From IMG/VR virus record IMGVR_UViG_3300025687_000026, positions 43,061-107,060 of that record: a DNA stretch of 64,000 nt; one strand, given 5' to 3'. Source of the DNA: a virus. Position numbers and translations under genes: made by a program. Positions 4,322 through 64,000 of this stretch are shown piece by piece (positions within the stretch are counted from its first letter, which is position 1; each line of letters starts with the position of its first letter). The notes under the pieces were generated by a model that saw only the letters and a list, made by a program, of their open reading frames with translations, was not told the DNA's origin and searched no databases.

Positions 4322-4329
4322 CTATCACA

Positions 4330-7374: not shown

Positions 7375-7375
7375 T

Positions 7376-7720
7376 CTATTTCACCTCAATCAACAATTGA
7401 ATGCGTAGTTCGTTTTGCGTCGTCTTAAGCACAGGAAGAATCGTGTGCCGAGCGACTGGCGTGAAAGAGTTTGAACCACGGAACTGGACATAGACTTCTT
7501 TCAAGGAGTCCGTGAACTCTTCCGATGCTGGTATAAAACCTTCAACGAGGATGGTGTTGTCGTCGACGATGCGCACCGTCGGATTGAGCGTGATGGCTGG
7601 ACGACCAGCGGCCCCATCAGAACTCGTAGATGGGGTTCCATCGAAACCTATAATCATCTCGTTGATGTTGCTCGCTATCGTGTCGAGCAGCGCCCGTTTG
7701 ATGTGGTCGCTTACCGGCAT
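7376..7720 (-). CDS. Small virion/tail-tip protein, unknown
   Basis: A 114-residue protein of unknown family. It begins with a helical stretch ('SDHIKRALLDTIASNINEMIIG'), and the rest is predicted beta-rich ('ITLNPTVRIVDDNTILVEGFIP', 'ELRIQLLIEVK'). It lies between a hub-like protein and the tail fibre, and starts in a 1-base overlap with the stop of the upstream gene. Position and beta-rich make-up suggest a fibre adaptor or tail-tip protein, but no motif proves it. The start is ATG at 7720. Confidence 0.65.
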   Translation of the reverse strand: MPVSDHIKRALLDTIASNINEMIIGFDGTPSTSSDGAAGRPAITLNPTVRIVDDNTILVEGFIPASEEFTDSLKEVYVQFRGSNSFTPVARHTILPVLKTTQNELRIQLLIEVK

Positions 7721-35786: not shown

Positions 35787-36959
35787 TCACTGCAGGTCAC
35801 GGATGCTACCCTGAGCACGGAAGAAGGTGGTCCACACCTCGCCCATGGTTCGGTAGAGGCCTTCTTGACCGAGGCGGTTGATGGCGAATGGGTCGCCAGT
35901 CTCGATGCCGGACTCGAAGTATTGCGTTGGGATTGCAGTAGAGAAGTAGAGGTAGTCCGTGTCGAGGAAATACATCCGGCTGATGCCGTCCTTCTCAACA
36001 TCCTTTGAGGGGATGATGGGGACGCCGTTGTAGGTAGCCACGATGAAACCAGCCTCGATACCGGGAACACCCTTCACACCGTTGTAGGTGGGGGTGACTC
36101 GCTTTTCTTCCATGAACCGCTGTTGGGCTTGGAGGAGTTGCTGGAGTCGCATGAGGGTGTCGTAGCCCGTCAAGATGACCTTGGGGTTACCACCGAGTTC
36201 CCACATGCGCTGGAAGGTGTCATCCAGTTGGTCGAGGGACATGGTGCGTCGGTTGGCGGCGTCTTGGTCAGAGCCACAGTTGACGACAGCGTTGGACCAA
36301 GCGTTGGCGCTGCGGTCGATGCTGTAGATGTCAAGGTCATCGGTCCCACAGTGGTCAGCAGCAGCGGAACCCGTCTCCATGGAGGTCAGGCCGCCGGAAG
36401 CGCCACCGTCGTTACCGGTGATGCGGTCAATGGACTCGAAGTTGTTGCCTGCGAGAGTGTCAGCGTCCGTGAGGAGCATCTTGTTGACCATCTCAGCGTG
36501 GTGCTTGCCCATCTCTTCCTTAAGGACGGCTCGCATGTCACCCATGCCGTCGTCCTTGTCGGACAAAAAGACAGCGACTTCGCTCACATCGAAGGAGTGT
36601 GCTATGGTCTTGGGTTTTGCAGCGATGTGCTGGAAGGTTGGCTTGATGGTTTCAGGCAAGGTGCCGTTCTCAGCGATACCACCAGTGAGGACGCCGCCGT
36701 TGGGCTTGTCCGTGATGACTCGCCATCCACTGCGCTCCCATGGGCGCTTGGGGAGGATTGAGAAGGCGTTGAACTCTTGGTTCAACTGGGACCACACTTT
36801 GCGTCCGTAGATGGCTTGGTAGGTTCCAGCCGTCGTGGACAGCATAGGGCTGTCGGCCTTGAGAAGTTCAGAGCCACTGTAAGAGTAGCCCATTGCGTTG
36901 CCTGCGCCATAGTAGTAGCGCTCCATGTCGGTTACTGTGCGAACATAATTTCGTGCCAT
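35787..36959 (-). CDS. Major capsid protein (HK97 fold)
   Basis: A 390-residue major capsid protein. It follows protease and scaffold and is followed by decoration and connector genes, the canonical order. Typical features are an N-arm, then 'RKVWSQLNQEFNAFSILPKRPW', a long helix at 'DMRAVLKEEMGKHHAEMVNKML' (the spine-helix region), and late A-domain strands 'NGVPIIPSKDVEK' and 'SRMYFLDTDYLYFSTAI'. The ribosome binding site AAAGGAGATGAAAAC is the strongest type in the window. The first ~40 residues contain 'GSELLKADSP', a weak version of the LLK motif discussed in the findings; they may be removed by the prohead protease. I saw no recognisable extra domain. Confidence 0.9.
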   Translation of the reverse strand: MARNYVRTVTDMERYYYGAGNAMGYSYSGSELLKADSPMLSTTAGTYQAIYGRKVWSQLNQEFNAFSILPKRPWERSGWRVITDKPNGGVLTGGIAENGTLPETIKPTFQHIAAKPKTIAHSFDVSEVAVFLSDKDDGMGDMRAVLKEEMGKHHAEMVNKMLLTDADTLAGNNFESIDRITGNDGGASGGLTSMETGSAAADHCGTDDLDIYSIDRSANAWSNAVVNCGSDQDAANRRTMSLDQLDDTFQRMWELGGNPKVILTGYDTLMRLQQLLQAQQRFMEEKRVTPTYNGVKGVPGIEAGFIVATYNGVPIIPSKDVEKDGISRMYFLDTDYLYFSTAIPTQYFESGIETGDPFAINRLGQEGLYRTMGEVWTTFFRAQGSIRDLQ

Positions 36960-49819: not shown

Positions 49820-51241
49820 TCACCACTTTACTTTATCAGCCCAGTATGCAGCACTCAATTTTCCACGGTTGATGTTTTTGGCGTGACGGGCCTTGAACGA
49901 CTCACGACGCTTGCGGTATGAGGAAGACTCGCCCTGTTTCTTAGGAGAGCCTGAAACACCTTGCTGACCGAAGCGAATAGTTTTGACCTTCCCACCTTCC
50001 CGAGCCACGACAACATGGCTCTTTTTCGGATGCTTGGGCGTTCGCTTGGGTTTGTTGAATCCACTCACACCGGCACGAGCGAGACGAGGGTCACGCTTTT
50101 GCGCTTTCAAAACCACCCATGCGAGGTCAGCCGGTGAAGGATAAGCCCGCTGCACCATGTCTTGGTCAGCAAAGAACTGAGTCGGGTCTTCCTCTCGTAG
50201 TGCTGCAAGTTGCGCTTCTCCCTCAGCACCCATAGAGTCAGCACGATTCTTCTGTCGCTGTATTTGCGACATAAGTCGCATGAACTCACGACGCTGGGCG
50301 GGGTCGTAGAAGTTTGGATTCAGACGCATGTCTTGATAATCAGCACCGGCTTTACCCTCACCATAAAGGAAGCGAGCAAAGGCTTCTTGGTCTTCCTCTT
50401 CAGGGTCGAGGGCTTGAGCAGCCTGCATACCGAGACGACTGATGGTTGACTCAGCAAGGGCTGGACCTCGCTCCATTTGTGAAGCAACATCGCTGAAACG
50501 ACGAGCCTGTCCCTTCTCACCGGCTTCACGCAAGCGTTGTGCTTCTTCCATGAGTTCAGCCGGAGTGGCTTTTGATATGAAGGCGGGAGTAAGGGAGGTT
50601 CCCATTCGTTCTTGAGCGAGGGTGGGTGGTGGTAATCCTGCAGGGTTGCTTTCAGTAGGATGAATCAATCCCTGCTCTTTCATCTCTTTCAGTTTCTGCC
50701 GTGTTCTTTCACGAAAAGCCTCTACATCTGCAGGACTTGAGGAAGCAGGAGGTTCTACATGAAAACCAGCGTAGGGGTCGGTTGCGTCAAAACTGGCTCG
50801 CTTCATACTGTCGAAGATGTTGGCGTAGAGGTCTTCTTCTTCTGTTTGAGGCTTCTTTCTGTCCTCTTCTTCTTGTAGACGCTGCATCAACGGCTTGCCG
50901 CTCTCAAAAGCCTCAGCCTCTTCTTTACTTCCTCGTCGCCCACTGTGACCGATTGAAACATCATCAGCGAGTTTTGGGGCTTCTTCTTCAGGTTCAGCGT
51001 TGGGGTCGTCGAGGTCACCTTGTTGGTAACGAACTTGATTCCTAACTTGTCGCCCAGCGCCCATGCGAGCGTTTGCATTTGACAAAACTTTTCCGCGTCT
51101 TGAGAGTTCGCTGCTAAGTTGGTCCATCTTTTCTTGCTTGTCCGGGTCAGCAGCGTTTGCAGGATTCTTGTCTGAGGGTTTCCCTACAGAGATAACGAGG
51201 ACCATGCCCTTGCCTTTCTTTCCAACTTTTTCTTCCTTCAT
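49820..51241 (-). CDS. Long disordered protein with LLK motif and basic C-terminal module
   Basis: About 473 residues. The first ~360 are Glu/Gln/Pro/Ala-rich and probably extended with helical stretches. At about 369-379 lies 'SPADLAWVVLK', followed by a basic tail with 'KTIRFGQQGVSGSPKKQG' and 'SFKARHAKN' to 'KLSAAYWADKVKW', a module recurring in phage head proteins. I took ATG 51241, which overlaps the TerL stop as ATGA; an earlier in-frame ATG at 51253 would give a 16-base overlap. It lies directly after TerL, so it may be a head or packaging-associated virion protein. No enzyme motif is visible. Confidence 0.7.
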   Translation of the reverse strand: MKEEKVGKKGKGMVLVISVGKPSDKNPANAADPDKQEKMDQLSSELSRRGKVLSNANARMGAGRQVRNQVRYQQGDLDDPNAEPEEEAPKLADDVSIGHSGRRGSKEEAEAFESGKPLMQRLQEEEDRKKPQTEEEDLYANIFDSMKRASFDATDPYAGFHVEPPASSSPADVEAFRERTRQKLKEMKEQGLIHPTESNPAGLPPPTLAQERMGTSLTPAFISKATPAELMEEAQRLREAGEKGQARRFSDVASQMERGPALAESTISRLGMQAAQALDPEEEDQEAFARFLYGEGKAGADYQDMRLNPNFYDPAQRREFMRLMSQIQRQKNRADSMGAEGEAQLAALREEDPTQFFADQDMVQRAYPSPADLAWVVLKAQKRDPRLARAGVSGFNKPKRTPKHPKKSHVVVAREGGKVKTIRFGQQGVSGSPKKQGESSSYRKRRESFKARHAKNINRGKLSAAYWADKVKW

Positions 51242-52722
51242 GGTATCATCCATCCATCATTTTTTCTTGGTTCGCCCGTGAGCCAATCATCGAATCCGGG
51301 CATGTAATCATCAAGCATCACTACGCTTCCTCGGAACTCTTTGGTCGCCCAGTTGGCGAGAGCGAGGGACATGGCGAGGTCATCATGCACACCTACGCTT
51401 TCGAGTCGTCCATTCTTCTGCATACCGAAGCGGGTCAATTCCTCTTCGAGTTTGTGCGTAAAACGACGAGAGCGGTCGTCACCGTAAGGCGTCTTAATTT
51501 GACCCTGTTCAAACGCCATCAAGAGTGACATAAACAAACTCTCCTTGCGGGTGCGAGTCGTCATGAAAGTGCGGATTGGAATATCTTGGCGAATATCCTG
51601 CAGTTCCATAGCGAACATACGCTGGAAGTTGTTACCTTCGAGTTCGATGAGGTCGGGCTGAAACTTGTTGTTGAGAAGGATGATGGCTCGCTTCTGTGCT
51701 GCTGACCCCATACCTTGCTCGTGCACACTGCCCACGATTTGCTTGACATCTTCGTCAGGTAGCGTGCGTAAAACTGTTATGGCTGTGTAGTCAGCGTTCT
51801 TGTCCGATGCGATGGCCGTGTCCCAACCAATGAAATGATGACCGAGCACACCGACTCGCTCACCGTTCTCATCATACTCAGCGTCAGCGACATCGAGAAG
51901 TTTGAGTTCATGGTCACGGGCCTTTTCAAGCAGCGTCATTGGGAACATACTGGCGACATCGTGAATTGGTTCACAGAGATACTCACGAGTGAACTGAATA
52001 GCAGGCATCGACATGCGCCGCTGGTCGAGTGCTTCAAGGTTCCAACGCTCAGGCCACAGAGCCACACCTTCCCTGTTGATAGCAGGGTAGGTTTCAACGA
52101 CAAATGTCTCCGTCTTCTCAAGTTGAGCATACAGGTCGTTGTAACTGAACGGTGTGCCCACCATCATCAAGCGACCCGTGTGGTGGAGAACAGGAAGCAA
52201 AACACCGTAAAACCAGTCTGCAGCACGCTGCAGTTCAGACCCAGTGGTTCCCCACAGAATGTCGTCACACAACACAACATCCGGGTGGAAACCACGAGTT
52301 CCACCACCGACTGACTTGGCCATGATACGGCTACCGTTGGTGAACTCGAAGTAGGTCTTACGCCATGGCTTACCCGAGGGAATCAAATCCTTCAAACACG
52401 GTGAGTTCTGAATGTTCTGTCGGATGAAACGCATGTGCTCAAGCGTCTGCTCCAACGAGTGAGAGAAAATCATGATGTGCGTGCCGGGATTGAAAGCAGC
52501 AATCCACAGGGCGTAGGACATGAAGAACACGGACTTACCGTGGTCACGAGATGCCTTCACGCAGTAGTAGCGGTTGTCAGCCAATCCCTTGTCCCACATG
52601 CCGTGGTGGTTAGCATAGTCGAACTCAAGCACCGTCTCAAAGAAGTATTTGAACGACCGAGCGGACATTTTCTTGTCCATCTCGATGACAAGTTCTTGCA
52701 TCTCAGCAGACTTGTCGCTCAT
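51238..52722 (-). CDS. terL: Terminase large subunit
   Basis: A 494-residue DNA-packaging motor. The ATPase domain has Walker A at 57-64 ('ASRDHGKS'), Walker B at 149-154 ('VVLCDD') and a coupling-type 'MMVGTPF' at 186-192. The C-terminal RNase H-like nuclease shows 'GWDTAIASDKNADYTA' (Asp301), 'LIELEGNNF' and 'GVHDDLAMSLALANW' as metal-binding sites. The length is normal for the family. ATG 52722 overlaps the stop of the upstream gene. A TerS candidate is six genes upstream (58144-58857), an unusual distance; portal and capsid follow further downstream in the usual order. Confidence 0.95.
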   Translation of the reverse strand: MSDKSAEMQELVIEMDKKMSARSFKYFFETVLEFDYANHHGMWDKGLADNRYYCVKASRDHGKSVFFMSYALWIAAFNPGTHIMIFSHSLEQTLEHMRFIRQNIQNSPCLKDLIPSGKPWRKTYFEFTNGSRIMAKSVGGGTRGFHPDVVLCDDILWGTTGSELQRAADWFYGVLLPVLHHTGRLMMVGTPFSYNDLYAQLEKTETFVVETYPAINREGVALWPERWNLEALDQRRMSMPAIQFTREYLCEPIHDVASMFPMTLLEKARDHELKLLDVADAEYDENGERVGVLGHHFIGWDTAIASDKNADYTAITVLRTLPDEDVKQIVGSVHEQGMGSAAQKRAIILLNNKFQPDLIELEGNNFQRMFAMELQDIRQDIPIRTFMTTRTRKESLFMSLLMAFEQGQIKTPYGDDRSRRFTHKLEEELTRFGMQKNGRLESVGVHDDLAMSLALANWATKEFRGSVVMLDDYMPGFDDWLTGEPRKNDGWMIP

Positions 52723-53990
52723 TCCTCAACCCCCATTGTCGACATGTTTTGCTTCTTCCCACTGAACTTTTCAGCAAGAGCGGCACCTGCTTCAGCAGCG
52801 TCTTTACCAGTCGTTGGCTCAGCAATTCCATCTGACGGGTCAGCAGCAGTTGATTGAGGAAACGCAGCAGCCATACCTTCCGCCGTCTTGGGGGGTATGG
52901 GGAGTTTGCTTTGCTCCGTCGATGAAGCGGTGGTTGGCGATGCCGTGACAGGTGCACCGGGTAGTTGTGTTTGATTTGGGTCATTGGGCGCTCGTGATGC
53001 TGGGTTAAATTGAGGCACGGGCTCGAAAACATCGGTGTTGTAAGCGCCTCCTCGCATGTCAAACGGTTGCCTCGCTGTGGTTGGGTTGAGGAGTCGTTCA
53101 ACACCAATCAAACGCTGCTCTGCCCCTCGTAGCGTGCCGGGCAGGTTGTATTGAAGAGCCCTTTGCAGTCGGGCTCGCTCAGCCTCAAGACCGGCTCGGT
53201 ATTCGGCGTAAGGAGGGGGAGTAGGACCTGACGGGACAGGTGCAGGTGTGGGTTGAGCCACGGTGGGCTGAGCGACGGCTACACGATTTGCACGACGGTT
53301 TTCCAAAGCCTGACGCCCTCGCTCCAAACCTTGCTGGGCTCTGCGTTGAACACCAACTGAACCAGCGCCAAGGCGTGCTCCCGCTGCACCAGCAGCGCTT
53401 TCAAGATGAGGGCGAGCAGCACTGGTGGTTGTCATCCCCCGAATAGCAGCCGAGCCAAGACCCTGTTCAAGACCTGCACCTGACGCCCCGGCCTGCTCAA
53501 GCGCAGTGACAGCCGAGAGGCCACCGAGTGCTCCGGCAAGACCAGCACCAAGCCTTCGCCCAAAGACGCCGACCTTACCTGCCCGTTGACCAGCAGTGCG
53601 AGCGTCACCTATCTGCTGTTCAGTCATCGGTCCTTGTCGTCCTCTCCTACCCCCTTCAACAACGCCAGCGAAGCCCTGATGTCCGTAGCGCTCTTGATGA
53701 CTACGAAACTCACCGGCTTTGACCTTGCGCTTCATTTCAGCAAGTTCCCGCCGCTGCTGAGCGGCGAGGTCAGGGTCTTCAAACTCAGAAGGCGAAGCAG
53801 CACCTTCCAAGTTAGGAGCGGTGAGTGCCGCATCTCGCCTTGCGACATAGACTTCTTCGGGCGTTCGCTGCGTCTGCGCTTCCAGCGGCAACCCTTTCGG
53901 AGCAGGGCCGCCAATTAGTTGCTGCTGAGTCAAGTTTCCCGCAGGGTCAGCGTAGAGTTCAAACGATTTCAGCACGAGGACTTTACTCAT
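52719..53990 (-). CDS. Ala/Gly/Pro-rich low-complexity virion-region protein
   Basis: A 423-residue protein. A short N-terminal motif ('MSKVLVLKSFELYADPAG') is followed by charged helical sequence, an Ala/Gly-rich part at about 145-215 ('FGRRLGAGLAGALGGLSAV'), and a Pro/Ala/Thr-rich C-terminal half. It is probably disordered or weakly membrane-associated. It starts at ATG 53990 in a TGATG overlap. The N-terminal 'VLKSFEL' is a weak version of the shared LLK motif. No known family. Confidence 0.6.
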   Translation of the reverse strand: MSKVLVLKSFELYADPAGNLTQQQLIGGPAPKGLPLEAQTQRTPEEVYVARRDAALTAPNLEGAASPSEFEDPDLAAQQRRELAEMKRKVKAGEFRSHQERYGHQGFAGVVEGGRRGRQGPMTEQQIGDARTAGQRAGKVGVFGRRLGAGLAGALGGLSAVTALEQAGASGAGLEQGLGSAAIRGMTTTSAARPHLESAAGAAGARLGAGSVGVQRRAQQGLERGRQALENRRANRVAVAQPTVAQPTPAPVPSGPTPPPYAEYRAGLEAERARLQRALQYNLPGTLRGAEQRLIGVERLLNPTTARQPFDMRGGAYNTDVFEPVPQFNPASRAPNDPNQTQLPGAPVTASPTTASSTEQSKLPIPPKTAEGMAAAFPQSTAADPSDGIAEPTTGKDAAEAGAALAEKFSGKKQNMSTMGVEE

Positions 53991-56329
53991 CAAATCCCCC
54001 CTACACTGATTTTGACAACCTTGACCACATCCGATGAGATGTTGAGGCGCTTGGCTATGCGCTCCCAGTCACCCATTTGATGGGCGATGGAGCGAATATC
54101 GACAGGTGTGAGATTGAGGTGCTTAGCAAGATGGCGGACACCGTGCTCATCAGCGATGTTAACTGGACGAGTCAAAGCGTGCTTCATGACGCGGTCACTC
54201 TTCATGGCGTCATCGCGCTGCATCTGCTCCATGGCCTTCATCAACCGGTCCGCTTCAGGCAACATGTTGTCCTGACTTTTCATGTATTCTGTAAGAAGAC
54301 GCTGCCGTGGGTCACCAAAAGTCTGCTGGAATTGTCGCTCTTGCTCAGTGAGTTCACCTGTGCCGGGCTTTGGACCAATGCCGCTCAATTCCATGAATTG
54401 ACGCAAGGTCGCTGGGTCAGCCTGACCCACACCCATACGGGCAGCCTGCTGTTCAGGCGACAATTGCCCAATTGGGATGCCCCCGGTGCGGCGAACGGCC
54501 ACAGGTGCAGGTGCTGCCACAGGTGCAGGTGCTGCCTCAGGTGCAGGTGCTGGTGCTGGCGCAGCCATCGGAGGCGTAGCGGCAGGCGGAGCCACCACTC
54601 CTTCAGTCACAGGACGACGAGGTGCAGGTTCAGGACGAGGTGCGGCTGTAGGTGCTACCGATGCTGCTCCCATGGACAAGTCAGTAAAGAGTGGGACATG
54701 CTCAGGGACGGACGGGATAAGTTCCTCAGGGTAACCCATCACCGTTCGCCCAGCAAGACCGGTCGTCGGTAGTTCATCGGGAACAGCACGACGCTCTTCA
54801 TGCCCAAACGCACGAGCCATCATGTCGGCGATACCTTCGATAGCCTGACGGCGAGCGTTGACTTGCTCTTCCTTAATACCCTCGTGACTCACGCCCAAGG
54901 CTTGAAGCGTCTGAGCATCCGGCTGGTAATCTCTCAACTGAGGAAGGGATTCATTGTGATGAGCCAACATGGCCTTGACATACATCTGAGCCATGTTCTT
55001 GTGTGTGCTCCCGTTCTTCGTCGGATGCTTTGTGCCCGACATGAACTCAGGCTCAAGTGGAATGTGCTCACCTTGAAGAGCATGCTCCATCAAATTATCA
55101 AACTGAGTTCGCTTGCCTTCTTCGTCAGGGTCGCCACCGAACGCATCCAACAAGTGACTGAAAATACGAGCACCTGAACTGGGACGCTTCTGACCACCTG
55201 ACTTAAGTCGACCGAATAAGGCCGTGAGGGCCGAAGTTGAGCCCAATTCATTCAGGAGATTTTTCAGCATCTCTTCATTGGACAAGACCGTCTTAAGAGG
55301 CTGCATCGTGTAGTTGGTCCCGCCAGCAGTTTGAGCCGTGTTGATAGGCACCTGCACATCAGGGATAATATCGGGATTTTCAGCAGCCCGCTTCAAAGCC
55401 TCCTTGATATGACCACGAGCACTGCGCATGGTTTCAGACGGTGGCGTTTTTTGCGAAGCCAACTTGTAGTGCATCAAATCAGGCATGTGGTGCGCAACCG
55501 ACCACGACTGCACTGAGTCAAATGCGGGATTAAAGTTGACACCGCCGGGAGCGTTGGTGATGTGTGAATCAGGAAGTTGTCCACCCTGACCAATGACATC
55601 TCCACCGCGACCTTTCAAACGCCGACCGGCTGGATGAAGGTCGTCGATTGAGATGTGGCCTCGTGTCGTCCACTCCATGTTAGCAATGTCGTCGAGTCCG
55701 TATTCTCGGACAATGGCCGCCAGTTGTTTCCAGTAAGGAATCGAATAGGATTCAACAAAGTGACCGACCTTTTCGTTTCGGTTCGGTCGATTGGTAAAAG
55801 TCGTAACAAAATGTCCATCAACGCTACGGTTAGGACGACGGGTCGGTTCCATGTTTGCGTTGTAAGGAGTGGCCTTGAGTTTTCGCCACTCCATGGAGTC
55901 AACATCAGGTAGATGGTGCGCTCCGCTTCGGTCCTTATGCGTGTCATTGTATTCGTTAATGGCTCGCTGTAGGAGTTCCTTAGCCAAGCGTGGGTCGTAA
56001 CCGGCTCGCTCAAGTGCCTCACCGAGATGATGCCATACACCGTCGTGCCCGTGGTGATGGTCGAAGCCGTCAGTGTGATAGGTCATCTCCCCGTGTTTGC
56101 CTCGTTGAAACTCACCCTCAAGCAATTCACCCATGCCCGCATGACCGGAAGGGTGAGGTCGAGAGTTACCGTAGTGAGCAAAAAGTGGGACATCCGGCCC
56201 TTCGGGGTCCGGGTTAATCGCTTCGGGAGGGGGGTTCGTCAAAAGATGCGGCACACCGTTGAAAAAAGCGTAGTTACCGTGCCCTTTCAGCAGAATGTCC
56301 GCTGACTTCAACACGAACACGGGCCTCAT
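53990..56329 (-). CDS. His-rich large virion-region protein
   Basis: A 779-residue protein of unknown function. It begins 'MRPVFVLKSADILLKGHGN'. Residues up to ~360 are His/Gly-rich ('GFDHHHGHDGVWHHLGEAL', 'WSVAHHMPDLMHYKL') and look folded; a helical part follows ('LSNEEMLKNLLNELGS', 'LTALFGRLKSGG'), then a Pro/Ala linker at about 555-615, and a C-terminal helical region with 'HGVRHLAKHLNLTPVDIRSI'. In style it resembles the large protein at 38390-43813 (His-rich, many 'HP' and 'HD' pairs), so both may be internal head or ejected proteins. The ATG at 56329 overlaps the upstream stop (ATGA). Confidence 0.6.
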   Translation of the reverse strand: MRPVFVLKSADILLKGHGNYAFFNGVPHLLTNPPPEAINPDPEGPDVPLFAHYGNSRPHPSGHAGMGELLEGEFQRGKHGEMTYHTDGFDHHHGHDGVWHHLGEALERAGYDPRLAKELLQRAINEYNDTHKDRSGAHHLPDVDSMEWRKLKATPYNANMEPTRRPNRSVDGHFVTTFTNRPNRNEKVGHFVESYSIPYWKQLAAIVREYGLDDIANMEWTTRGHISIDDLHPAGRRLKGRGGDVIGQGGQLPDSHITNAPGGVNFNPAFDSVQSWSVAHHMPDLMHYKLASQKTPPSETMRSARGHIKEALKRAAENPDIIPDVQVPINTAQTAGGTNYTMQPLKTVLSNEEMLKNLLNELGSTSALTALFGRLKSGGQKRPSSGARIFSHLLDAFGGDPDEEGKRTQFDNLMEHALQGEHIPLEPEFMSGTKHPTKNGSTHKNMAQMYVKAMLAHHNESLPQLRDYQPDAQTLQALGVSHEGIKEEQVNARRQAIEGIADMMARAFGHEERRAVPDELPTTGLAGRTVMGYPEELIPSVPEHVPLFTDLSMGAASVAPTAAPRPEPAPRRPVTEGVVAPPAATPPMAAPAPAPAPEAAPAPVAAPAPVAVRRTGGIPIGQLSPEQQAARMGVGQADPATLRQFMELSGIGPKPGTGELTEQERQFQQTFGDPRQRLLTEYMKSQDNMLPEADRLMKAMEQMQRDDAMKSDRVMKHALTRPVNIADEHGVRHLAKHLNLTPVDIRSIAHQMGDWERIAKRLNISSDVVKVVKISVGGI

Positions 56330-57750
56330 GCTCGGTTACCCCCTCGTCCGACGAGTTGTCCAATGGGGTCAAGTCCCCATGTTCGAGGGTCGTTTTCGTC
56401 TTCCGTCCCTCCTTCACCACGAGTGGTTTGCTTTGGATTGTTACCGGGGTATTTTGGTAGCGTTGACGCCGCACCAGCGGTGTCAGGCGCACCCATGTTT
56501 TTCTTTTTGTCATCCTTGTCTTTCATGCGACGCATGAGTTGTCGCATTTCACGGAGAGCAGTGCGGGCTTCAGCAAGAAGGTAGTGATTTGTGCCCGCTT
56601 TCAGGAGGTCACCTTCAGGCACAGGGTCTTCGCTCATGGTCACCATACCCGGCATACTTGGTCGGTTTAAGTGAGGCATGCGCATCTTAGGCGGCTGAAT
56701 TGGGGGAGCACGAACAGGATGAAGACGAGGTCGAGGGGCGCTGGGCATCCGAACCTGCCCAAAGGGCAGTGCCGCTCCGCTTTGAGGAGCAATTTGACCA
56801 CGAATGCTCTGCTGCTCTTGGTAGCCTCGCCACTGTCCGTAGGCCTGAGGGTCCTTGGACATTGGCTGCTTACTGGCGATACCGCGGTGAGACATCTCAA
56901 CTGACAAGTGAGGTTGCATCAACCCCGTCTTGCGACCCATGGGGAGGTTGCGAGACAACAATTTAGCCCGAGCCGAGGTGCCTGAGCGACCGGTGTAGCC
57001 GCCACGAGGACGCTTGAACTTACCAGTGGAGGGCCGCCACTTGGCTCGCTCTTCAGTCTTACGACGCTTCTCTTGCTTACGCTTGGACTTCAACAATTCA
57101 GACCAAGCGTAGACCATCGGCTCACTGGCGTTCTTCTGTTGGAACTGGGGGTCAAACTCAGGGTCAGGAATGGAATCATCGAGTTCGGGTGGTAAAGGCA
57201 TACGAGCAGTCAACTCAGCCTCTTCTTCAGCGATTTTGTAAGCATCCTCCAAATTATCAGCATAACCCAAAGCCATGGCTTCCATAGCAAGTTCATACAA
57301 CTCATCCGAACGGTCGAACTTGAGAATATCAGACCAAGCGTAAGCCATCGACTCACTCATCTGAATCATTTCACCACCGGCAGCACCGGGGCCCTTAGCC
57401 TGAGCAGCGAGGCTGGTCAAGAATCCACCGGCACCAGCAGGTTGCGTTGGTTCAGTGGGTGACTCACGAGGTTTGAACAAAGACTCTTCTTCTTCCATTC
57501 CCTCTTCGGGTTTGTCACCAAGACCCATGTGATGACGACGCACCTTGATGTGTCGAATCTGACGGTCCTCCTTTTCTTCCCGCTCCTGCTTTTTCTGCTT
57601 GCGGTCCATCCGTGCTTCTTTGTCACGAGCATCTTCCAAGCCAGTAGGGGTTTCCTCGTCTTCGTGGTTTGCACGGAACATGTGCGAAGACTCGGAGCGT
57701 GGAGCGTAGATGCGGGTGTCCGAGCCACGACCCATCATGCCCTCAGTCAT
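56326..57750 (-). CDS. Charged low-complexity protein with two YAWS-LLK motifs
   Basis: A 474-residue protein, mostly charged and low-complexity. Two copies of a motif are seen: 'SMAYAWSDILK' at 134-144 and 'PMVYAWSELLK' at 211-221, each preceding or following a helical stretch ('LYELAMEAMALGYADNLEDA'). The middle is Arg/Lys-rich ('KFKRPRGGYTGRSGTSARAK'); the C-terminus is Pro/Gly-rich. I took ATG 57750 because GGAGGTGA lies 8 bases before it; the frame is open to a GTG at 57759. It overlaps the upstream gene by 8 bases. No enzyme signature; a scaffold-like or capsid-internal role is possible. Confidence 0.6.
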   Translation of the reverse strand: MTEGMMGRGSDTRIYAPRSESSHMFRANHEDEETPTGLEDARDKEARMDRKQKKQEREEKEDRQIRHIKVRRHHMGLGDKPEEGMEEEESLFKPRESPTEPTQPAGAGGFLTSLAAQAKGPGAAGGEMIQMSESMAYAWSDILKFDRSDELYELAMEAMALGYADNLEDAYKIAEEEAELTARMPLPPELDDSIPDPEFDPQFQQKNASEPMVYAWSELLKSKRKQEKRRKTEERAKWRPSTGKFKRPRGGYTGRSGTSARAKLLSRNLPMGRKTGLMQPHLSVEMSHRGIASKQPMSKDPQAYGQWRGYQEQQSIRGQIAPQSGAALPFGQVRMPSAPRPRLHPVRAPPIQPPKMRMPHLNRPSMPGMVTMSEDPVPEGDLLKAGTNHYLLAEARTALREMRQLMRRMKDKDDKKKNMGAPDTAGAASTLPKYPGNNPKQTTRGEGGTEDENDPRTWGLDPIGQLVGRGGNRA

Positions 57751-58144
57751 CCATGTCACCTCCAGTTAGTGAATCGAAGGCGTCGAAGAGCACTTCGCTG
57801 AGGTCAGTATAGACGCCTTTAACGACCGGGTTGACTGGGAAGGCCCGGACCATGTTGTTCGTCATGTGTTCGTGTTCTTGAAGCAAACGGGCTGTAAGTT
57901 CACGCACCGGGATTACAACTGAAGGGTCATCGTTGTTGAGCAAAGTGTGGAAACTCTCCTTCAGCATTTCAAACAAAAAGGGTGCTGTCACCACGATTTG
58001 ACCGTAGTGCTCAAAACGCTCGGCCATTCGCTGAGCATAGTCGACAACGCTCATGATGTCTTCATCGTTGAGATGAGGTCGAGCGATAACGAGGCGGTAG
58101 CCGGGATGAGCCACCTGCAACAAGTCGGGAACAGGGACTTCCAT
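57743..58144 (-). CDS. Small acidic helical protein near TerS, unknown
   Basis: A 133-residue protein with 'EVPVPDLLQVAHPGYRLVIA', a helical region ('MSVVDYAQRMAERFEHYG', 'FLFEMLKESFHTLL') and a C-terminal acidic stretch. It starts at ATG 58144 in a TGATG overlap with the TerS-like gene. No family is recognised; the position next to TerS suggests a packaging or early-assembly role, which is speculative. Confidence 0.6.
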   Translation of the reverse strand: MEVPVPDLLQVAHPGYRLVIARPHLNDEDIMSVVDYAQRMAERFEHYGQIVVTAPFLFEMLKESFHTLLNNDDPSVVIPVRELTARLLQEHEHMTNNMVRAFPVNPVVKGVYTDLSEVLFDAFDSLTGGDMDD

Positions 58145-58857
58145 CAAACGAACTCCTCCTCGACATGCCCAATGAGTTTCTCACGAATACGAGCCCACGA
58201 CTCGGGGCTTTCTTTGCCCAGTTCAACCTTGAGGATGTTGATGGTGTTGTGAATCTCGCCGTTTTCTGAAGTCGGGCCCCAGTTTTCTTGCATTTTCACG
58301 AGGTCCTTGATGGACTCCCTGACTTCCTTGTGCAGCATCACAGCGTCACGAACGAAGCCGTCTTCATGCACGCTGCCTTCGTTAAGCAGTTCAGACAATT
58401 TGTGATTAAGCAATTCAACATTCGAGCGCAGTGTATCAACCTCTTGACCGACAACCATGGCCACCTCAGCCACGGCTGCGCGTTGCACCAGCGGTTGAAA
58501 GTGATGCTTCATGTGGTGGTAGACGCTTTCTTCACGGATGCCCAACTCTTCTGCGATGGCGTCCGATTCAGAGCCGTCAGCAAAGTAACGCTGCTCAAAC
58601 TCAGAGCGTCGTGGGTCGGCGCACACCTTGCACTGGGGATTAGACGCCATGTGGAACTGACCCATGTGGTTGCGGTAATGGCGGTCGCTGGTGTTAAAGC
58701 GCCAACCCATGTCCTCATCGAGTTGCTTGGCTGCTATTTCACCCAGCAACATGCCCTGTTCAAGTTCTTCACGAGACGGATGTTGACAAAAAGGGCAGGA
58801 CCGCTTTGTGACACGCTCCGCACCCCCCATGCGTCCTTCTAAAGCAGCATCGGACAT
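58144..58857 (-). CDS. Putative terminase small subunit (zinc/HTH repeats)
   Basis: A 237-residue protein with two tandem units, each a CxxC, then a helix-turn-helix and a His pair: 'CPFCQHPSREELEQGMLLGE' to 'SDRHYRNHMGQFH' (residues 21-69), and 'CKVCADPRRSEFEQRYFADG' to 'IAEELGIREESVYHHMKHH' (76-119). The pattern 'C-x2-C-x2-P-x-R-x3-E ... RHxxxH' is used by small terminases and related DNA-binding proteins. The C-terminal half is helical ('ELLNHKLSELLNEG', 'KEVRESIKDLVKMQ') and could form the oligomer. I prefer ATG 58857 (MSDAALEG) over a longer frame to 58923, which would overlap the opposite-strand gene. TerL is six genes downstream. Confidence 0.55.
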   Translation of the reverse strand: MSDAALEGRMGGAERVTKRSCPFCQHPSREELEQGMLLGEIAAKQLDEDMGWRFNTSDRHYRNHMGQFHMASNPQCKVCADPRRSEFEQRYFADGSESDAIAEELGIREESVYHHMKHHFQPLVQRAAVAEVAMVVGQEVDTLRSNVELLNHKLSELLNEGSVHEDGFVRDAVMLHKEVRESIKDLVKMQENWGPTSENGEIHNTINILKVELGKESPESWARIREKLIGHVEEEFV

Positions 58858-58890
58858 AACCCTTTTCTCAAGAAACGCTCTCCCCGTTGC

Positions 58891-59160
58891 ATGTTCAGGA
58901 AGGTGCCTCGGGTCCCGAAACAAGTCACTGAACTAAAGAATGCAGGCAAAGACATCATAAAACGCCGCCGAGTTAGCAAAGAAGAGTTCATCCGCCGTTT
59001 AGAAGTCTGCATGGATTGCGAGTATCTGCTCAAAGCGGTGAATGTCTGCCGTCAGTGTGGGTGCTTTACCAAAGTGAAGGCTGCGTTACCTTCAGGTGAC
59101 TGCCCACTCGGGCGCTGGTCATTGAGTGAGTCGAGTGTAGATGCGCCCAAGAATGAGTGA
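58891..59160 (+). CDS. Cys-rich zinc protein on the opposite strand
   Basis: An 89-residue + strand gene inside the - strand block. The C-terminal half has 'CMDCEYLLKAVNVCRQCGCF' followed by 'KVKAALPSGDCPLGRW', an arrangement of CxxC, CxxCxC and a late CP that is typical of small zinc proteins in many tailed viruses. The N-terminal half is basic ('ELKNAGKDIIKRRRVSKEEF'). The start at 58891 lies only 33 bases from the divergent TerS-like start, with no clear ribosome binding site, so it may be leaderless. Its 3' end overlaps the - strand two-TM gene by 42 bases. A DNA-binding role is likely but unproven. Confidence 0.75.
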   Translation: MFRKVPRVPKQVTELKNAGKDIIKRRRVSKEEFIRRLEVCMDCEYLLKAVNVCRQCGCFTKVKAALPSGDCPLGRWSLSESSVDAPKNE

Positions 59161-59376
59161 GGACACCATGATACCAATGAGGTAGGCGCTGACTGCGTCA
59201 GCGCTCAGCGTGTTGCCCTTGAGCATGAGAATCAAACCAAAAATCAGAATCATGCTGATGAACTGCACCATAATCATGTCTGTGATAACGCTGCGTGAAG
59301 GAGCGAAAACCTGCATACTACTTTGTGAAAACGAAGTAATGGCTTGCTGCGAATAGTTCGGTGGGTTTCTCTGCAT
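59119..59376 (-). CDS. Small two-TM membrane protein
   Basis: An 85-residue protein with two predicted membrane segments, about residues 34-53 ('MIMVQFISMILIFGLILMLK') and 63-80 ('VSAYLIGIMVSSLILGRI'), joined by a short polar loop. The N-terminus is polar and Gln/Ser-rich. The size and topology fit a holin-like protein or a small membrane-remodelling protein; the sequence alone cannot decide. Its stop region overlaps the convergent Cys-rich gene by 42 bases. Confidence 0.65.
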   Translation of the reverse strand: MQRNPPNYSQQAITSFSQSSMQVFAPSRSVITDMIMVQFISMILIFGLILMLKGNTLSADAVSAYLIGIMVSSLILGRIYTRLTQ

Positions 59377-59385
59377 GTTTATCCC

Positions 59386-60057
59386 TCACTGTTTAGGTAG
59401 TCCCATGAAGGACCGTGCGACGCTTCCAATGCCTCCGCCCACTCGTTCCATCATGCCCTCGTCAGCCAATGCTGCTTGAAGAGCACCGCCCATCATGGAC
59501 TGTTGACTCATGGTGAGAATCTGTTGACGCTGCATCTCAGCCTGCTGAATTGTCTGCTGGCTGTTGTTCACGATTTGATTGAGAACCATAGCGACATTCT
59601 CAGCACTGAGCGTTTTGAGTGAGTCGGGCAACGAAGCGATATTGAGTTTCATCGTTCCTTCATCATCATCAATGACGAAAGTAGCGTCCTTCAGGATGTT
59701 GAGCAACGAAAGTGAGGTAGCCGTAGCCACGAGGTCAATGACTGCAGCAAGACCGCCAGTAGCAATAAAGCGATGGATAGGGTTCTGCGATTGAAGCAGA
59801 GCGTTGAGAATCTCCATTTCACTGGGAGGAGCAATCGGTTGTTGAGCATATTGTTGCATTTGACCATACTGCTGTTGCATTCCCATACCACCGACCATGC
59901 CGGACATGAAGGTGTTCTGCTGAGGTTGCATGGTGTTCACACCAAGGCCTATACCACCCTGCTGCATGGCGTTCATCCCACTCATTGGGGCTCCAGTGGC
60001 CGAAAGATTCAATCCACTGCTGGGTTGGGGCTGGCTGAAGTTAAACATCTGACTCAC
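59386..60057 (-). CDS. Met/Gln-rich N-terminus protein with hydrophobic middle
   Basis: A 223-residue protein. The first 75 residues are Met/Gln/Gly/Asn-rich low complexity ('GMGMQQQYGQMQQYAQQ'). From about 80 comes helical sequence with a hydrophobic part ('LAAVIDLVATATSLSLLNIL') and 'MVLNQIVNNSQQTIQQAEMQ', a possible coiled coil. The C-terminus is Gly-rich. It starts in a GTGA overlap with the upstream gene. No family is recognised; together with the nearby TM proteins and GTPase it may belong to a membrane-linked group. Confidence 0.6.
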   Translation of the reverse strand: MSQMFNFSQPQPSSGLNLSATGAPMSGMNAMQQGGIGLGVNTMQPQQNTFMSGMVGGMGMQQQYGQMQQYAQQPIAPPSEMEILNALLQSQNPIHRFIATGGLAAVIDLVATATSLSLLNILKDATFVIDDDEGTMKLNIASLPDSLKTLSAENVAMVLNQIVNNSQQTIQQAEMQRQQILTMSQQSMMGGALQAALADEGMMERVGGGIGSVARSFMGLPKQ

Positions 60058-60995
60058 ACCTGCCCAGCGACTCCTTCGCCATCAAGGTTCTGTTGAGGCA
60101 TCAACATGGCCTGTTGTTGTGCAAGCAAGGCTTGGAACTCCGCTGTAGGCATGTTCATCTGCTGCATTTCATGCTGGAAAATGCGCAGGTCGAAGACAAT
60201 CATCGTGACATCGTTGATGCCTGTCTCGGGGTTTTTGTAATGAAGGATGCTGATGCCCTTTGTTTTGCCTTGGTCACGCTCAAGTTCAGCAAAGAAGGGT
60301 TCATACTTTTGCAGCATCGCAGGTTGCGGGTCCTTTTGCCTCACTGAAGACACAGGCACGGTCACGATAGACACGCCTCGCTTAACTTTGTCACGCAAAC
60401 GGTTCGGGTTCATCTCGCTCTGCTTGTCCTCTTCGGACTCCCACTTGGTCAGAAGATGGAAAAGATGGAGGTGCTCAGGACAGTAAGTCCCTCGCATCTT
60501 TTTACCGCTGGTGACGCGGTCACGAGCGATAAACGCCTCGGGCTGACCGGTAACGGGGTTCGACCAATACATCTCCCACAGACTACGACCGCTATCTTCG
60601 TCGCAAATGCGCATGTAGAGGTTGTCATGCTGAATCAACGCAGCACAGTTACAACCATCAATGACGCAGGTCCCAGTGTCCTTGTCGTAACGGAACTTGT
60701 TACCAAGCCAGCGCAGCGGTGAAATACGACTCCGTTTAGCGGGACGCAGTAATTTGTAAGCCTGCTTAATGTCACGACGGCGAGCCTTGCGAGGGTCGGG
60801 GTGAGTGCTGGGATAGAAGTTGACCTTCGGCACCTCGATGTTTTGAGCAGCAGCAATTCGCTGCATGCCTTGTTGAGCAGCCATCATTTCAGCAAGTGCG
60901 GCTTGAGTCAATTGCTCGTTGCCCTGTGCAGCCAACATCGCAAGATGCGCTTCGTTGGTTTGATACAAAGATGGATTATTCGGTCGCAGCATCAT
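60054..60995 (-). CDS. Virion-region protein with Cys/His cluster, unknown
   Basis: A 313-residue protein. The N-terminus is Gln/Ala/Met-rich ('AALAEMMAAQQGMQRIAAA'), then basic ('DPRKARRRDIKQAYKLLR'). A possible metal site is 'GTCVIDGCNCAALIQHDN' with a later 'RICDEDSG' and 'YCPEHLHLFH'. The C-terminus is Gln/Met-rich again. I chose ATG 60995 (GGAGGGTG lies 9 bases upstream); a longer open frame to 61067 runs into the AbrB-like gene and is probably not coding. It overlaps that gene's stop by 20 bases. No known function. Confidence 0.6.
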   Translation of the reverse strand: MMLRPNNPSLYQTNEAHLAMLAAQGNEQLTQAALAEMMAAQQGMQRIAAAQNIEVPKVNFYPSTHPDPRKARRRDIKQAYKLLRPAKRSRISPLRWLGNKFRYDKDTGTCVIDGCNCAALIQHDNLYMRICDEDSGRSLWEMYWSNPVTGQPEAFIARDRVTSGKKMRGTYCPEHLHLFHLLTKWESEEDKQSEMNPNRLRDKVKRGVSIVTVPVSSVRQKDPQPAMLQKYEPFFAELERDQGKTKGISILHYKNPETGINDVTMIVFDLRIFQHEMQQMNMPTAEFQALLAQQQAMLMPQQNLDGEGVAGQV

Positions 60996-61182
60996 GAGAA
61001 GCACCCTCCACAGGAGCCATGACAACGACCATCTTCCCGTCCTGCACATGGAAGCGCCAATCCACATCGTCTCCGGCTGATAGGTTGAAGTGATTGATAA
61101 TCCACATGGGAACAGTGGTCCGCAGGCTACCGGTCTTAGACGACGCAGCGTGCAGCGTGGTCGTGGTCACATTCCTGCCCAT
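60976..61182 (-). CDS. AbrB/SpoVT-type regulator-like protein
   Basis: A 68-residue protein with the swapped-hairpin AbrB outline: 'SLRTTVPMWIINHFNLSAGD' followed by 'DVDWRFHVQDGKMVVVMAP' (residues about 19-57). Archaeal proteins of this type bind DNA as dimers and act as regulators or chromatin-like proteins; some are antitoxins. It lies between the GTPase and the Cys/His gene in the same direction, so it could regulate the viral late genes or a host promoter. It is shorter than two-domain versions; no fused domain is visible. Confidence 0.75.
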   Translation of the reverse strand: MGRNVTTTTLHAASSKTGSLRTTVPMWIINHFNLSAGDDVDWRFHVQDGKMVVVMAPVEGASHDAATE

Positions 61183-61228: not shown

Positions 61229-61954
61229 TCATGAGGTCAACAGGTCAACCATCGTTTTTTCAACATTCCAACCGATGCGCGTCGCCATGAAAGAGCGCTT
61301 TGACGGTATGCCTGCTTTTTGCAGACGAATGAGGTCATCACGAAAGGGGTCGAAGACTTTGTGTTCACCGATACGACCGTCGTGCCATAACTTGGACGCT
61401 GTCTCATCGAAGAAGCGGTCAGCCTTATTGGCCACCAACATGACAACCCGAGGAGCGTAGCGGCGTCCTTTAAGTCGAGAGCGTAGCGAACGATAGCGGT
61501 AATCACGGGTGATAAGACGGTCGACAAGAAAACGGAAGCCTGCAATCTGTTGCAGACCCTCATCGCCTCCTTTGAAGGCCCGCTCGTCAAACATGTAGAC
61601 CACAGCCTCCACTCCACGCGTAACCATATCCTCAATCCACAGGTTCCAAAACCGCTCTTGCCCACCGACATCGGCCGAATAAACGACTCGCTTCTGCCCG
61701 TCCCAGCCGATGCGTTTGCGTGTCGGCGTGGGCATGCTGTAAGCCCCGATGATTTTGAACATTTTTTCGTGCGTGGTCCGCTCCTCGTCAGGAATGGCTT
61801 CCATCTCACCGGGCGTGGTCATGAATCGGTCAAGGGTTGTTTTTCCGACTTTGGGGGCTCCGTAGATGCCGACTCGTCGTGGTCGCCACGAATTGTAGAG
61901 GGACTGTCCCCACACGGCAGCGCCAACCAGTGCCGTCCCTGCAGGTTCAACCAT
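61229..61954 (-). CDS. Arf/Ras-like small GTPase
   Basis: A 241-residue small GTPase. G1/P-loop GAPKVGKT at 32-39 (Lys38, Thr39), G3 DVGGQ at 95-99 with 'RFWNLW' after it, G4 NKAD at 176-179, and a G5-like 'SFMATRIGWN' at 221-230. DxGGQ followed by an LW is typical of the Arf/Sar branch and not of translation factors. A 25-residue N-terminal extension with a weakly hydrophobic stretch ('GTALVGAAVWGQSLY') could touch a membrane or a partner. It starts at ATG 61954 behind GAGGTGAGTCG. The next genes upstream encode one-TM and two-TM proteins. A GTP-driven membrane or assembly role is inferred; no substrate can be named. Confidence 0.85.
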   Translation of the reverse strand: MVEPAGTALVGAAVWGQSLYNSWRPRRVGIYGAPKVGKTTLDRFMTTPGEMEAIPDEERTTHEKMFKIIGAYSMPTPTRKRIGWDGQKRVVYSADVGGQERFWNLWIEDMVTRGVEAVVYMFDERAFKGGDEGLQQIAGFRFLVDRLITRDYRYRSLRSRLKGRRYAPRVVMLVANKADRFFDETASKLWHDGRIGEHKVFDPFRDDLIRLQKAGIPSKRSFMATRIGWNVEKTMVDLLTS

Positions 61955-61964
61955 CGACTCACCT

Positions 61965-62228
61965 CTACCACCACTTCAACCAGTTGGTGAAGTCTTTGAG
62001 TTTTTCAACTGTCCAATCAATCGTTGATTCATAGACGCTGAACTCGGTGTTATGAAACTCGATGCCGCTTACGACGAGAGCGGTTAGAAAAGATGCGATG
62101 AGCGCTTTGACCCATCCCAATGTTCGTTCATATGCCGTATCAACCGTGTTAGCAAGATGAATCGCTCGAAGGGTTTCTTCAGTTGCATTGTCCGACACCG
62201 TCTTGAAAATACGACCCATGCACTTCAC
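61965..62228 (-). CDS. Small single-TM protein
   Basis: An 87-residue protein. An amphipathic N-terminal helix ('ATEETLRAIHLANTVDTAYE') is followed by a membrane segment ('WVKALIASFLTALVVSGIEF', about residues 39-58) and a Trp/Lys-rich C-terminus ('WTVEKLKDFTNWLKWW'). It starts with GTG in a GTGA overlap with the upstream gene, and ends 10 bases before the GTPase start. A role with the GTPase at the host membrane is attractive but unproven. Confidence 0.7.
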   Translation of the reverse strand: MKCMGRIFKTVSDNATEETLRAIHLANTVDTAYERTLGWVKALIASFLTALVVSGIEFHNTEFSVYESTIDWTVEKLKDFTNWLKWW

Positions 62229-62794
62229 TCACCCTTCTTGGCGAATGTGCCGTCCTTTTTTCGAGGAACATCTGACTTTACCTCTTCTTCGACGCCGAGG
62301 CTAAGTGGAGCGGGGGCTTGAGCGGCATGAGTGGGAATGCGCATGTTGTCAGCACGCTGCTGGTCGTAGGTTCCAACCAGTGAAGGTGAGCCACCTTGGA
62401 CGCCCCAACTCGGAGGCATTTGACCGGGATTGGCTTCCATCCACCGCAACTCCTTTTCGAGTTGGGCTTCCTGCATTCGCAGTTCCATTTCAGCACGGCG
62501 CTGGTCGAAGGAATACTGCATGGTGCGATACTTGCTGTTGCGTTCTCGGTCAATCTGTGACATACGAGCACGCTCTCGCATGCCTTGCTCAAAAAAGACC
62601 TTGAACATGTAGTAAGCGATGCCTTGGATGAAGAACGCCCCCATGGCGTAGGTAAATCCATTCAACATCGGTGTTTCGTTCTTTAGCCATATGTCAGCAT
62701 CAAAGAGTCCGATGCCGACTCCAACCAGCGTTGACTGTGCGAGAATCAAGCCAAGAAGGCGGATTTCTGCTTCGTGCTGCGTGTCATCATCCAT
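62225..62794 (-). CDS. Two-TM coiled-coil membrane protein
   Basis: A protein of about 189 residues with two membrane segments ('LLGLILAQSTLVGVGIGLF' and 'YAMGAFFIQGIAYYMFKVFF'), then a charged coiled coil ('ERARMSQIDRERNSK', 'RRAEMELRMQEAQLEKELRW'), and a Pro/Ala-rich tail ending in 'RKKDGTFAKKGE'. It is the first gene after the AT-rich promoter region. I chose ATG 62794; a GTG at 62815 gives a 7-residue longer form. It looks like a membrane anchor whose coiled coil faces the cytoplasm; together with the next gene and the GTPase it forms a compact group. Confidence 0.7.
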   Translation of the reverse strand: MDDDTQHEAEIRLLGLILAQSTLVGVGIGLFDADIWLKNETPMLNGFTYAMGAFFIQGIAYYMFKVFFEQGMRERARMSQIDRERNSKYRTMQYSFDQRRAEMELRMQEAQLEKELRWMEANPGQMPPSWGVQGGSPSLVGTYDQQRADNMRIPTHAAQAPAPLSLGVEEEVKSDVPRKKDGTFAKKGE

Positions 62795-62815
62795 AGCGAC
62801 CACTGGTGAGGGCAC

Positions 62816-62982: not shown

Positions 62983-64000
62983 AGGTCGCCACCGCCAAAC
63001 ATCGGGCGGGTCAGGTCATCCTTATCGTCTTCGTCTTCACCGTGGCGCTCTTCGAGCATGCCGACCATGGCCGTAGCGATTTTCTTGTCTTGCTCATCCA
63101 TTGGACCCTGCATCAAGTTGCGTAGGAGTTCAAGGTCCTCTTTCATTGATTTCACCACACGCAGTGTGCCCTTTTCCCTGAAGTGGCGAGCCCGATTGGA
63201 ATGCTCAGGCTCAAGGGTCAAGCGATGGCCTTGTGTGTGACTGACATCCATGTGATTGTGACTTCCCATGATTCCACGGCGTCGTCGCTCTTGGTTCAAT
63301 TCTTCACGATACTTGACTTGGTCAGGACGCTTGTTGTAAGCAGCGTCGTATTCCCGCTTGTGACGCATGGCCTCAGGTGATTTGCGCTCTTTAACAAGCA
63401 CTTCCGAGCGAAGGAAGCCGCCGGACGCCATGCGAGACGCAAGCCCCCCTTGAGATTTATTATAGCGTTCCCAAAAGGCTTCATGGGGATTTTCGACATC
63501 CCATTCAGGAAACTCCTCAGCCATTCGAGCAAGAGCGATGTTGTCGGGATGTTCAGGGTGCGATTTAGCCCCTTGTGACATCAAGAAAAACTGCTTTTCA
63601 CGAGGTAGAGCAGCGGTGTTTTTTGCAGCATCAAAGTAATGCTGCAGGTAGCGATGATATTGGTCATACGCTTCATCAGGGTAAAGATGGTGTTTGTCCG
63701 ACCGAAACATGCCGCTGTAGTATTCAGTTTCATATTCACCACTGGCCGGGTCAGTCCAGTAAGATGGAACATGCTGCCCATCTTTGTTGGAGATAAAGTC
63801 AACGATGGCTCGTTGCTTGTCATGCAGTTCGTCGTAAGGAATGAGGGGATAACCCATGTCAAACGCTGCATCTATAAACTCATCTGATTTTCCAAAGAGG
63901 TCGAACGGATTCGTCATGGATTGCCGGTTGTAGACTTGCTCCATGAAAGGTTGAGTAACGGCGACTGCGTTCTCAAGCGGTTGACCAAAGATACGCTTGT
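62973..64000 (-). CDS. HNH-derivative virion-region protein (5' end cut by window edge)
   Basis: At least 340 residues; the frame stays open to the window edge ('KRIFGQPLENAVAVTQPF' before the ATG at 63944), so the real start is beyond 64000. Near the C-terminus, 'RHKREYDAAYNKRPDQVKYR' then 'RRRRGIMGSHNHMDVSHTQG' and 'EHSNRARHFR' resembles the basic HNH-type module of phage proteins (EYxxxY..., DVxH..., NRxR), with the later catalytic His unclear, so it may be degenerate. Upstream parts are Asp/Tyr/His-rich ('YYSGMFRSDKHHLYPDEAYD', 'YLQHYFDAAKNT'). It ends at the inverted repeat and promoter gap. Likely a head or DNA-contacting protein; uncertain. Confidence 0.55.
   Translation of the reverse strand, partial: KRIFGQPLENAVAVTQPFMEQVYNRQSMTNPFDLFGKSDEFIDAAFDMGYPLIPYDELHDKQRAIVDFISNKDGQHVPSYWTDPASGEYETEYYSGMFRSDKHHLYPDEAYDQYHRYLQHYFDAAKNTAALPREKQFFLMSQGAKSHPEHPDNIALARMAEEFPEWDVENPHEAFWERYNKSQGGLASRMASGGFLRSEVLVKERKSPEAMRHKREYDAAYNKRPDQVKYREELNQERRRRGIMGSHNHMDVSHTQGHRLTLEPEHSNRARHFREKGTLRVVKSMKEDLELLRNLMQGPMDEQDKKIATAMVGMLEERHGEDEDDKDDLTRPMFGGGDLFL

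Follow-up and report, generated by a model that had tools for sequence, protein, structure and literature searches.

A predicted Ras-superfamily GTPase encoded beside membrane-protein genes in two groups of magrovirus-like archaeal tailed viruses

The small GTPase ArvA (OapA) of Haloferax volcanii is needed for vesicle formation, and its Zn-ribbon operon partner ArvC has been proposed to act as a GAP (PMC10927574). The likeness between ArvA and the viral GTPase described here lies in a small archaeal GTPase whose G(I/V)YG..xGKTTL P-loop follows an N-terminal helix and whose operon also encodes a small Cys/His (Zn-ribbon) protein. ArvA is, however, a cellular protein with an Era-like DxPG G3 motif and OapB (DUF2073) as its partner, whereas G3 of the viral proteins is DxGG or DxAG throughout (200 sequences), and no OapB gene (PF09846, DUF2073) was found beside the viral GTPase in a Pfam scan of its neighbors. 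The profile match to ArvA (P 90%) covers the P-loop half alone, and ArvA falls in a separate tree clade (100/98).

Among other membrane GTPases, the Arf/Sar/Arl family (PF00025) shares with many viral members a DxGGQ-type G3 and with the family a W-bearing aromatic switch II, and among the cellular proteins compared by profile, an Asgard Arf-family-like protein matches it best. The viral family differs in having no Gly2, in not keeping the Gln, in listed scores below the Pfam cut-off and, in the group analyzed most closely, in a longer G1-G3 spacing. SRP receptor beta (PF09439), an Arf-like membrane GTPase, gives weak matches in 23 of 55 viral members, but these score under the cut-off and its partner genes are unrelated. 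Ras/Rab-like GTPases are sporadic among nucleocytoplasmic large DNA viruses; they have in common with the present protein a virus-encoded Ras-superfamily fold and provide its best viral structure matches, yet the gene studied here belongs to the universal core of its archaeal tailed virus groups, and identity is 9-18% in most of those matches.

The gene was recognized in a stretch of 64,000 nucleotides (the window) of an IMG/VR virus record. Relatives gathered in five scans comprise 222 loci of the group to which the window belongs (the window group; 120 distinct at 97%) and 82 loci of a second, sister group. GTPases of the two groups share about 30% identity and match one another in profile-profile comparison at P 99.9% and E 3e-35.

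The GTPase, its predicted fold and its family

The gene and the parts of its product are as follows:

61229..61954, minus strand: Ras-superfamily GTPase gene, 241 aa, ATG start, open frame
Product: hydrophobic N-terminal helix, aa 4-23; G1, 32-39; candidate G2, T60; G3, 95-98; G4, 176-179; G5, 223-226

The original prediction had placed G1, G3, G4 and a G5-like segment in the right order and spacing, and both the ORF translation and the homologs bear this out: GAPKVGKT (32-39), DVGGQ (95-99), NKAD (176-179) and the G5-like MATR (223-226) are ordered and spaced as in a G domain, and the signature GxxxxGK[ST], DxxG, NKxD is ordered and invariant across 200 viral sequences (120 from the window group and 80 from the sister group). 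Gaps aside, K38, T39, T47, R59, T60, D95, G98, D123, N176, K177 and D179 are invariant in these homologs, T60 being the candidate G2 Thr, and W103, W106 and D109 are likewise invariant in the viral GTPase; such invariance excludes a chance origin of the motifs. The G5 segment is MATR/K among window-group members and VSAK among those of the sister group. The Arf-style DxGGQ form, also claimed at the outset, did not hold across the family: residue 99 after DxGG is Q in 75, E in 33, D in 11 and H in one of the 120 window-group sequences, and E in 63 and Q in 17 of the 80 from the sister group. A hydrophobic N-terminal helix (residues 4-23) with a basic end, which had gone unmentioned, is conserved in the viral GTPase. 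The N-termini begin MVEP/MSVM, and Gly2, which carries the myristoyl group in Arf/Arl, is absent. The hydrophobic moment of the helix gave p 0.42 in the window group (no significant amphipathicity), where an Arf-like amphipathic N-helix was thus rejected, and p 0.07 in the sister group, a hint.

Structure prediction agreed that a G domain fold is present. AlphaFold2, run with 55 diverse relatives, returned a confident Ras-superfamily domain (pLDDT 85.3, pTM 0.84) whose beta-alpha order is the alternating order of the small GTPase G domain, and Foldseek matched this model to Rab/Ras/Rho GTPases, with Rab1 best (E 3.3e-9, TM (target) 0.62) and Rac, Rap and Ras also returned at E about 1e-8. When a first, weaker model was compared with BFVD, all matches to E 0.001 were annotated to large eukaryotic viruses and none to a prokaryotic virus; PHROGs gave no match to the viral GTPase. 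A tRNA-modification, Era-like or AAA/ABC ATPase identity is ruled out by the DxGG G3, the NKxD G4 and the Rab/Ras/Rho fold matches, and RecA matches in a PDB profile search, which fall in concatenated proteins, cover the P-loop alone. On its motifs and modeled fold, ORF 61229-61954 encodes a real Ras-superfamily G protein, for which GTP binding and hydrolysis are predicted.

Placement within the superfamily proved less simple. The window GTPase is not among the Pfam matches to Arf (PF00025), for which the gathering threshold is 22.3 bits; family members with listed bits score 14.9-19.2, and one member matches at E 3.8e-5 with its bits unlisted. In Pfam the viral GTPases match Roc, MMR_HSR1, SRPRB, Arf and Ras by turns, and no member with a listed score passes the curated threshold of any of them; for SRPRB the best E is 1e-4 and the scores listed reach at most 22.2 of 25 bits. 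Compared by profile with Asgard small GTPases, the family is nearest to a chromosomal Arf-family-like protein (L581:1312-1950, minus strand, on Asgard chromosome G110; P 97.9%), in which a DCPG G3 is followed by LWPYWKKAMQD; next come Arf-like and Roc-like sets (P 96-97%), ArvA and Rab/Ras (69%). In an IQ-TREE analysis with an Asgard-only cellular reference, the viral GTPases form a single clade (100/99) on a long stem, which joins the rest at 85/36 and joins no cellular family. The original prediction of an Arf/Ras-like protein thus stands as to a Ras-superfamily small GTPase in a tailed archaeal virus, as motifs and fold indicate, and is not supported as to Arf membership, given the sub-threshold listed scores, the absent Gly2, the variable Gln and a tree that joins the viral clade to no cellular family. 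As no listed score passes a curated threshold, Gly2 is lacking and the clade is unplaced, we file the protein separately and call it a new viral family within the extended Ras-like GTPases, not an Arf.

The viruses and the universality of the gene

Magrovirales are defined as archaeal tailed viruses of 90-110 kb that encode a PolB replisome of their own and transcribe their replication and virion clusters in opposite directions (PMC12999244), and are listed by ICTV as tailed viruses of Poseidoniales archaea. The source record, of 107,060 bases (the window being bases 43061-107060), agrees with this genome plan in size, PolB replisome and opposed clusters. It carries a B-family DNA polymerase and ORFs resembling, by eye, clamp loader, clamp and RadA, while terminase, portal, protease and capsid genes form a late cluster on the opposite strand from the replication genes. 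Two genes served as markers of the late cluster:

51238..52722, minus strand: large terminase subunit (phrog_38, E 5e-61), about 9 kb downstream of the GTPase; late-operon marker
35787..36959, minus strand: major capsid protein (phrog_24667, E 5e-59); second marker

The record is Magrovirales-like, as judged from gene content, size and layout and not from direct comparison with the exemplars OR863078, PP497039 and ON649702. In the second group PolB matches lie in two separate pieces, GC is about 35% and large records measure 82-103 kb; ICTV gives for Aoguangviridae a PolB split into NTD and CTD, GC of 31.5% and 92 kb. By its split PolB, low G+C and size, this sister group is Aoguangviridae-like.

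Several other properties of the record were observed. Its two ends (bases 1-702 and window 63299-64000) share 97.4% identity over a 702-base overlap; a complete genome of about 106 kb, either circularly permuted or terminally redundant, is therefore probable. A TCP-1/cpn60-family chaperonin (window 2583-4058, plus strand; PF00118, E 2e-122) had no match when compared with phage records and with 13 records of the sister group. Window 9126-26108 (minus strand) is a single ORF of 5660 aa inside the late cluster. A recurring peptide was noted at record bases 3900-8900 (L160, beyond the window), at window 49646 (minus strand) and at window 56326-57759 (minus strand): seven ORFs start with a near-identical M(S/R)xAF(D/E)xAWxxLK, an additional ORF has PFDFAWLLLKG close to its start, and similar peptides, YAWSELLK/YAWSDILK, occur twice within the 56326-57759 protein. 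The peptide resembles a targeting tag common to these proteins, which may direct them to the inside of the capsid. A weak Death domain match (E 3e-4, 21.2 of 22.6 bits) at aa 662-710 of window 53990-56329 (minus strand) is probably due to chance. Record 4660-5505 (minus strand; L160) is an ORF resembling, by eye, an HMG-CoA lyase-type enzyme (VYEVGPRDGLQ), a type of gene that ICTV lists for Aoguangviridae.

Universality was assessed in records recruited through other genes (terminase, major capsid protein), which avoids circularity. The GTPase was present in 29 of 45 recruited window-group records, the other 16 all ending before the expected site, and in 42 of 49 from the second group, where the remaining seven end before the site as judged from capsid positions. 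It was therefore found in all 71 records with the expected site on the contig (29 window-like and 42 Aoguangviridae-like), and its loss in the 16 and seven others was rejected because those contigs stop short. Against a 92%-identical relative (one pair), dN/dS was 0.032 for the GTPase, 0.037 for the terminase and 0.08-0.09 for the TM neighbors; in this pair the GTPase sequence appears as constrained as that of the terminase, under strong purifying selection. GTPase matches were also met in MAGs labeled 'Maricaulis' and 'Asgard'. Two of them, one label each, sit on contigs of only 8-9 kb, and a further two from the 'Maricaulis' MAG on contigs bearing virus genes; all four were read as misbinned virus. 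From this gene distribution the GTPase is a core gene of two groups of magrovirus-like archaeal tailed viruses and not a stray host gene.

The surrounding module and its possible function

The GTPase gene lies on the same strand as the following genes, of which those from TM2 to g59386 make up the conserved module (loci counted in the window group):

62225..62815, minus strand: TM2, 196 aa, a TM hairpin at the N-terminus followed by a long, charged, helical tail; 4-nt overlap with TM1
61965..62228, minus strand: TM1, 87 aa, one strong TM segment (aa 40-58); its end is separated from the GTPase start by 10 nt
60976..61182, minus strand: small ORF, AbrB-type by eye, between GTPase and Cys/His gene; 61 of 120 loci
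60054..61067, minus strand: Cys/His-rich soluble protein with a GTYCxxH motif (C..GTYCxxH); 120 of 120 loci
59386..60057, minus strand: g59386, Q/M-rich protein with one hydrophobic segment, the next module gene; 120 of 120 loci
59119..59376, minus strand: two-TM protein, 85 aa; 101 of 120 loci, missing from a well-covered subclade
58144..58923, minus strand: Cys-rich HTH-like protein with weak HTH matches; 120 of 120 loci

From its position and motif, the last of these is possibly, as a guess, the small terminase. The one-TM and two-TM coiled-coil neighbors described in the original prediction are indeed there, with a charged helical tail and a TM2 hairpin in which one segment exceeds threshold and a second, weaker one was recognized by eye. 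They also co-occur with the GTPase: TM1 is present on the same strand in 118 of 120 window-group loci and TM2 in 117, the two and three gaps all falling at contig edges. The module order, TM2, TM1, GTPase, the AbrB-like ORF in half, Cys/His protein and g59386, is repeated in the second group as TM2, TM1, GTPase, Cys/His and g59386, TM1 being found there in 69 loci. The module lies upstream of the terminase in the window group and directly behind the capsid gene in the second; since its order is kept though its location differs, it behaves as a unit. The Cys/His-rich gene, which follows the GTPase immediately or almost so in both groups, and g59386 match between groups by profile (E 1e-5 and 2e-5, respectively), and the Cys/His-rich protein is a candidate partner or regulator of the GTPase. 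Between-group profile matches of TM1 and TM2 reach only E 0.14 and 0.53, so that homology across the groups is unsupported for these two and their agreement is one of position and topology alone.

Because the GTPase stands beside the same membrane genes in every relative covering the site, it is probably a core part of virion building or release in these viruses. The N-terminal helix with its basic end, the TM genes that stay beside the GTPase and the late-operon setting point to a switch directed at the membrane, and a membrane-directed role in assembly or egress may reasonably be inferred. More specifically, we tentatively propose a late, membrane-recruited GTP switch that would cooperate with both TM proteins in assembly or egress, a reading that we judge to fall just short of probable. 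GTP binding would drive a switch in residues 46-60 and 95-110, with the invariant W103, W106 and D109, that would recruit the GTPase to the host membrane through its hydrophobic helix or through TM1/TM2; the GTP form may then organize the TM2 hairpin, the TM2 cytosolic coil and TM1 late in infection, leading to particle assembly at the membrane or to membrane remodeling and opening for egress. Since Glu or Asp can stand in for the catalytic Gln, hydrolysis would probably be slow or assisted in trans, and the adjacent Cys/His protein would be the first candidate helper. A membrane switch with a putative Cys/His GAP recalls ArvA and its partner ArvC, as an analogy and not as homology. The fold and motifs, the presence in 71 of 71 records, the TerL-like dN/dS, the TM1/TM2 adjacency and the movement of the module as a unit speak for the membrane switch; the helix moment and the between-group TM1/TM2 profiles speak against it, and head or tail assembly with no membrane step at all would account for the late-operon position just as well.

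That last point leads to a GTP-dependent virion assembly factor, active in head assembly or head-tail joining, with no membrane role and with TM genes adjacent for other reasons. Such a factor would suit a gene lying among head genes in both groups and conserved like TerL; it is nevertheless unlikely, as no tailed-virus assembly GTPase of the Ras superfamily was found in PHROGs or BFVD and the persistence of TM2 and TM1 beside the GTPase after relocation of the module would go unexplained. A switch for host takeover, imitating or inhibiting a small GTPase of the host (one of ArvA-type vesiculation or of cell polarity, for instance), is improbable: the nearest cellular matches are small GTPases, including ArvA and the Arf-like Asgard protein, and vesiculation is under the control of archaeal GTPases (PMC10927574), but takeover genes are usually early and variable, and this one is universal, in the late cluster and among the most conserved. 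Quite improbable is a targeting or insertion factor resembling SRP receptor beta that places viral TM proteins in the membrane, for although the adjacent TM genes and the SRPRB matches point that way, the scores stay under the cut-off and no SR-alpha-like partner was seen. The exchange of Gln99 for Glu, Asp or His in many members might suggest a P-loop protein without GTP hydrolysis, retained as a structural scaffold; the P-loop Lys/Thr, T60, D95 and NKxD, invariant in 200 sequences, imply (as a prediction) nucleotide and Mg binding and make this very improbable.

A more ambitious form of the membrane switch is possible though rather doubtful, namely a dedicated GTP-switched machine of GTPase, TM hairpin protein, one-TM protein and Cys/His regulator that would remodel or open the host membrane for virion assembly or release. 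If true, it would be a release system distinct from both holin/endolysin lysis and ESCRT-type budding.

Significance for archaeal viruses and small GTPases

Little is known of how archaeal tailed viruses exit from cells. In the literature searched, no Ras-superfamily GTPase recognized as a core gene of any prokaryotic virus was found, nor any paper dealing with both magroviruses and a GTPase, although earlier annotation in key magrovirus papers or their supplements is possible. Here, a marine archaeal tailed virus encodes a molecular switch that belongs, like human Ras and Arf, to the small-GTPase superfamily. Debates on membrane traffic and on how eukaryotes arose turn on this superfamily, which the new family extends by a viral branch of deep divergence. 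The GTPase occurs in every tested member of this ocean virus group, and given this universality a single protein could open late Poseidoniales infection to experiment.
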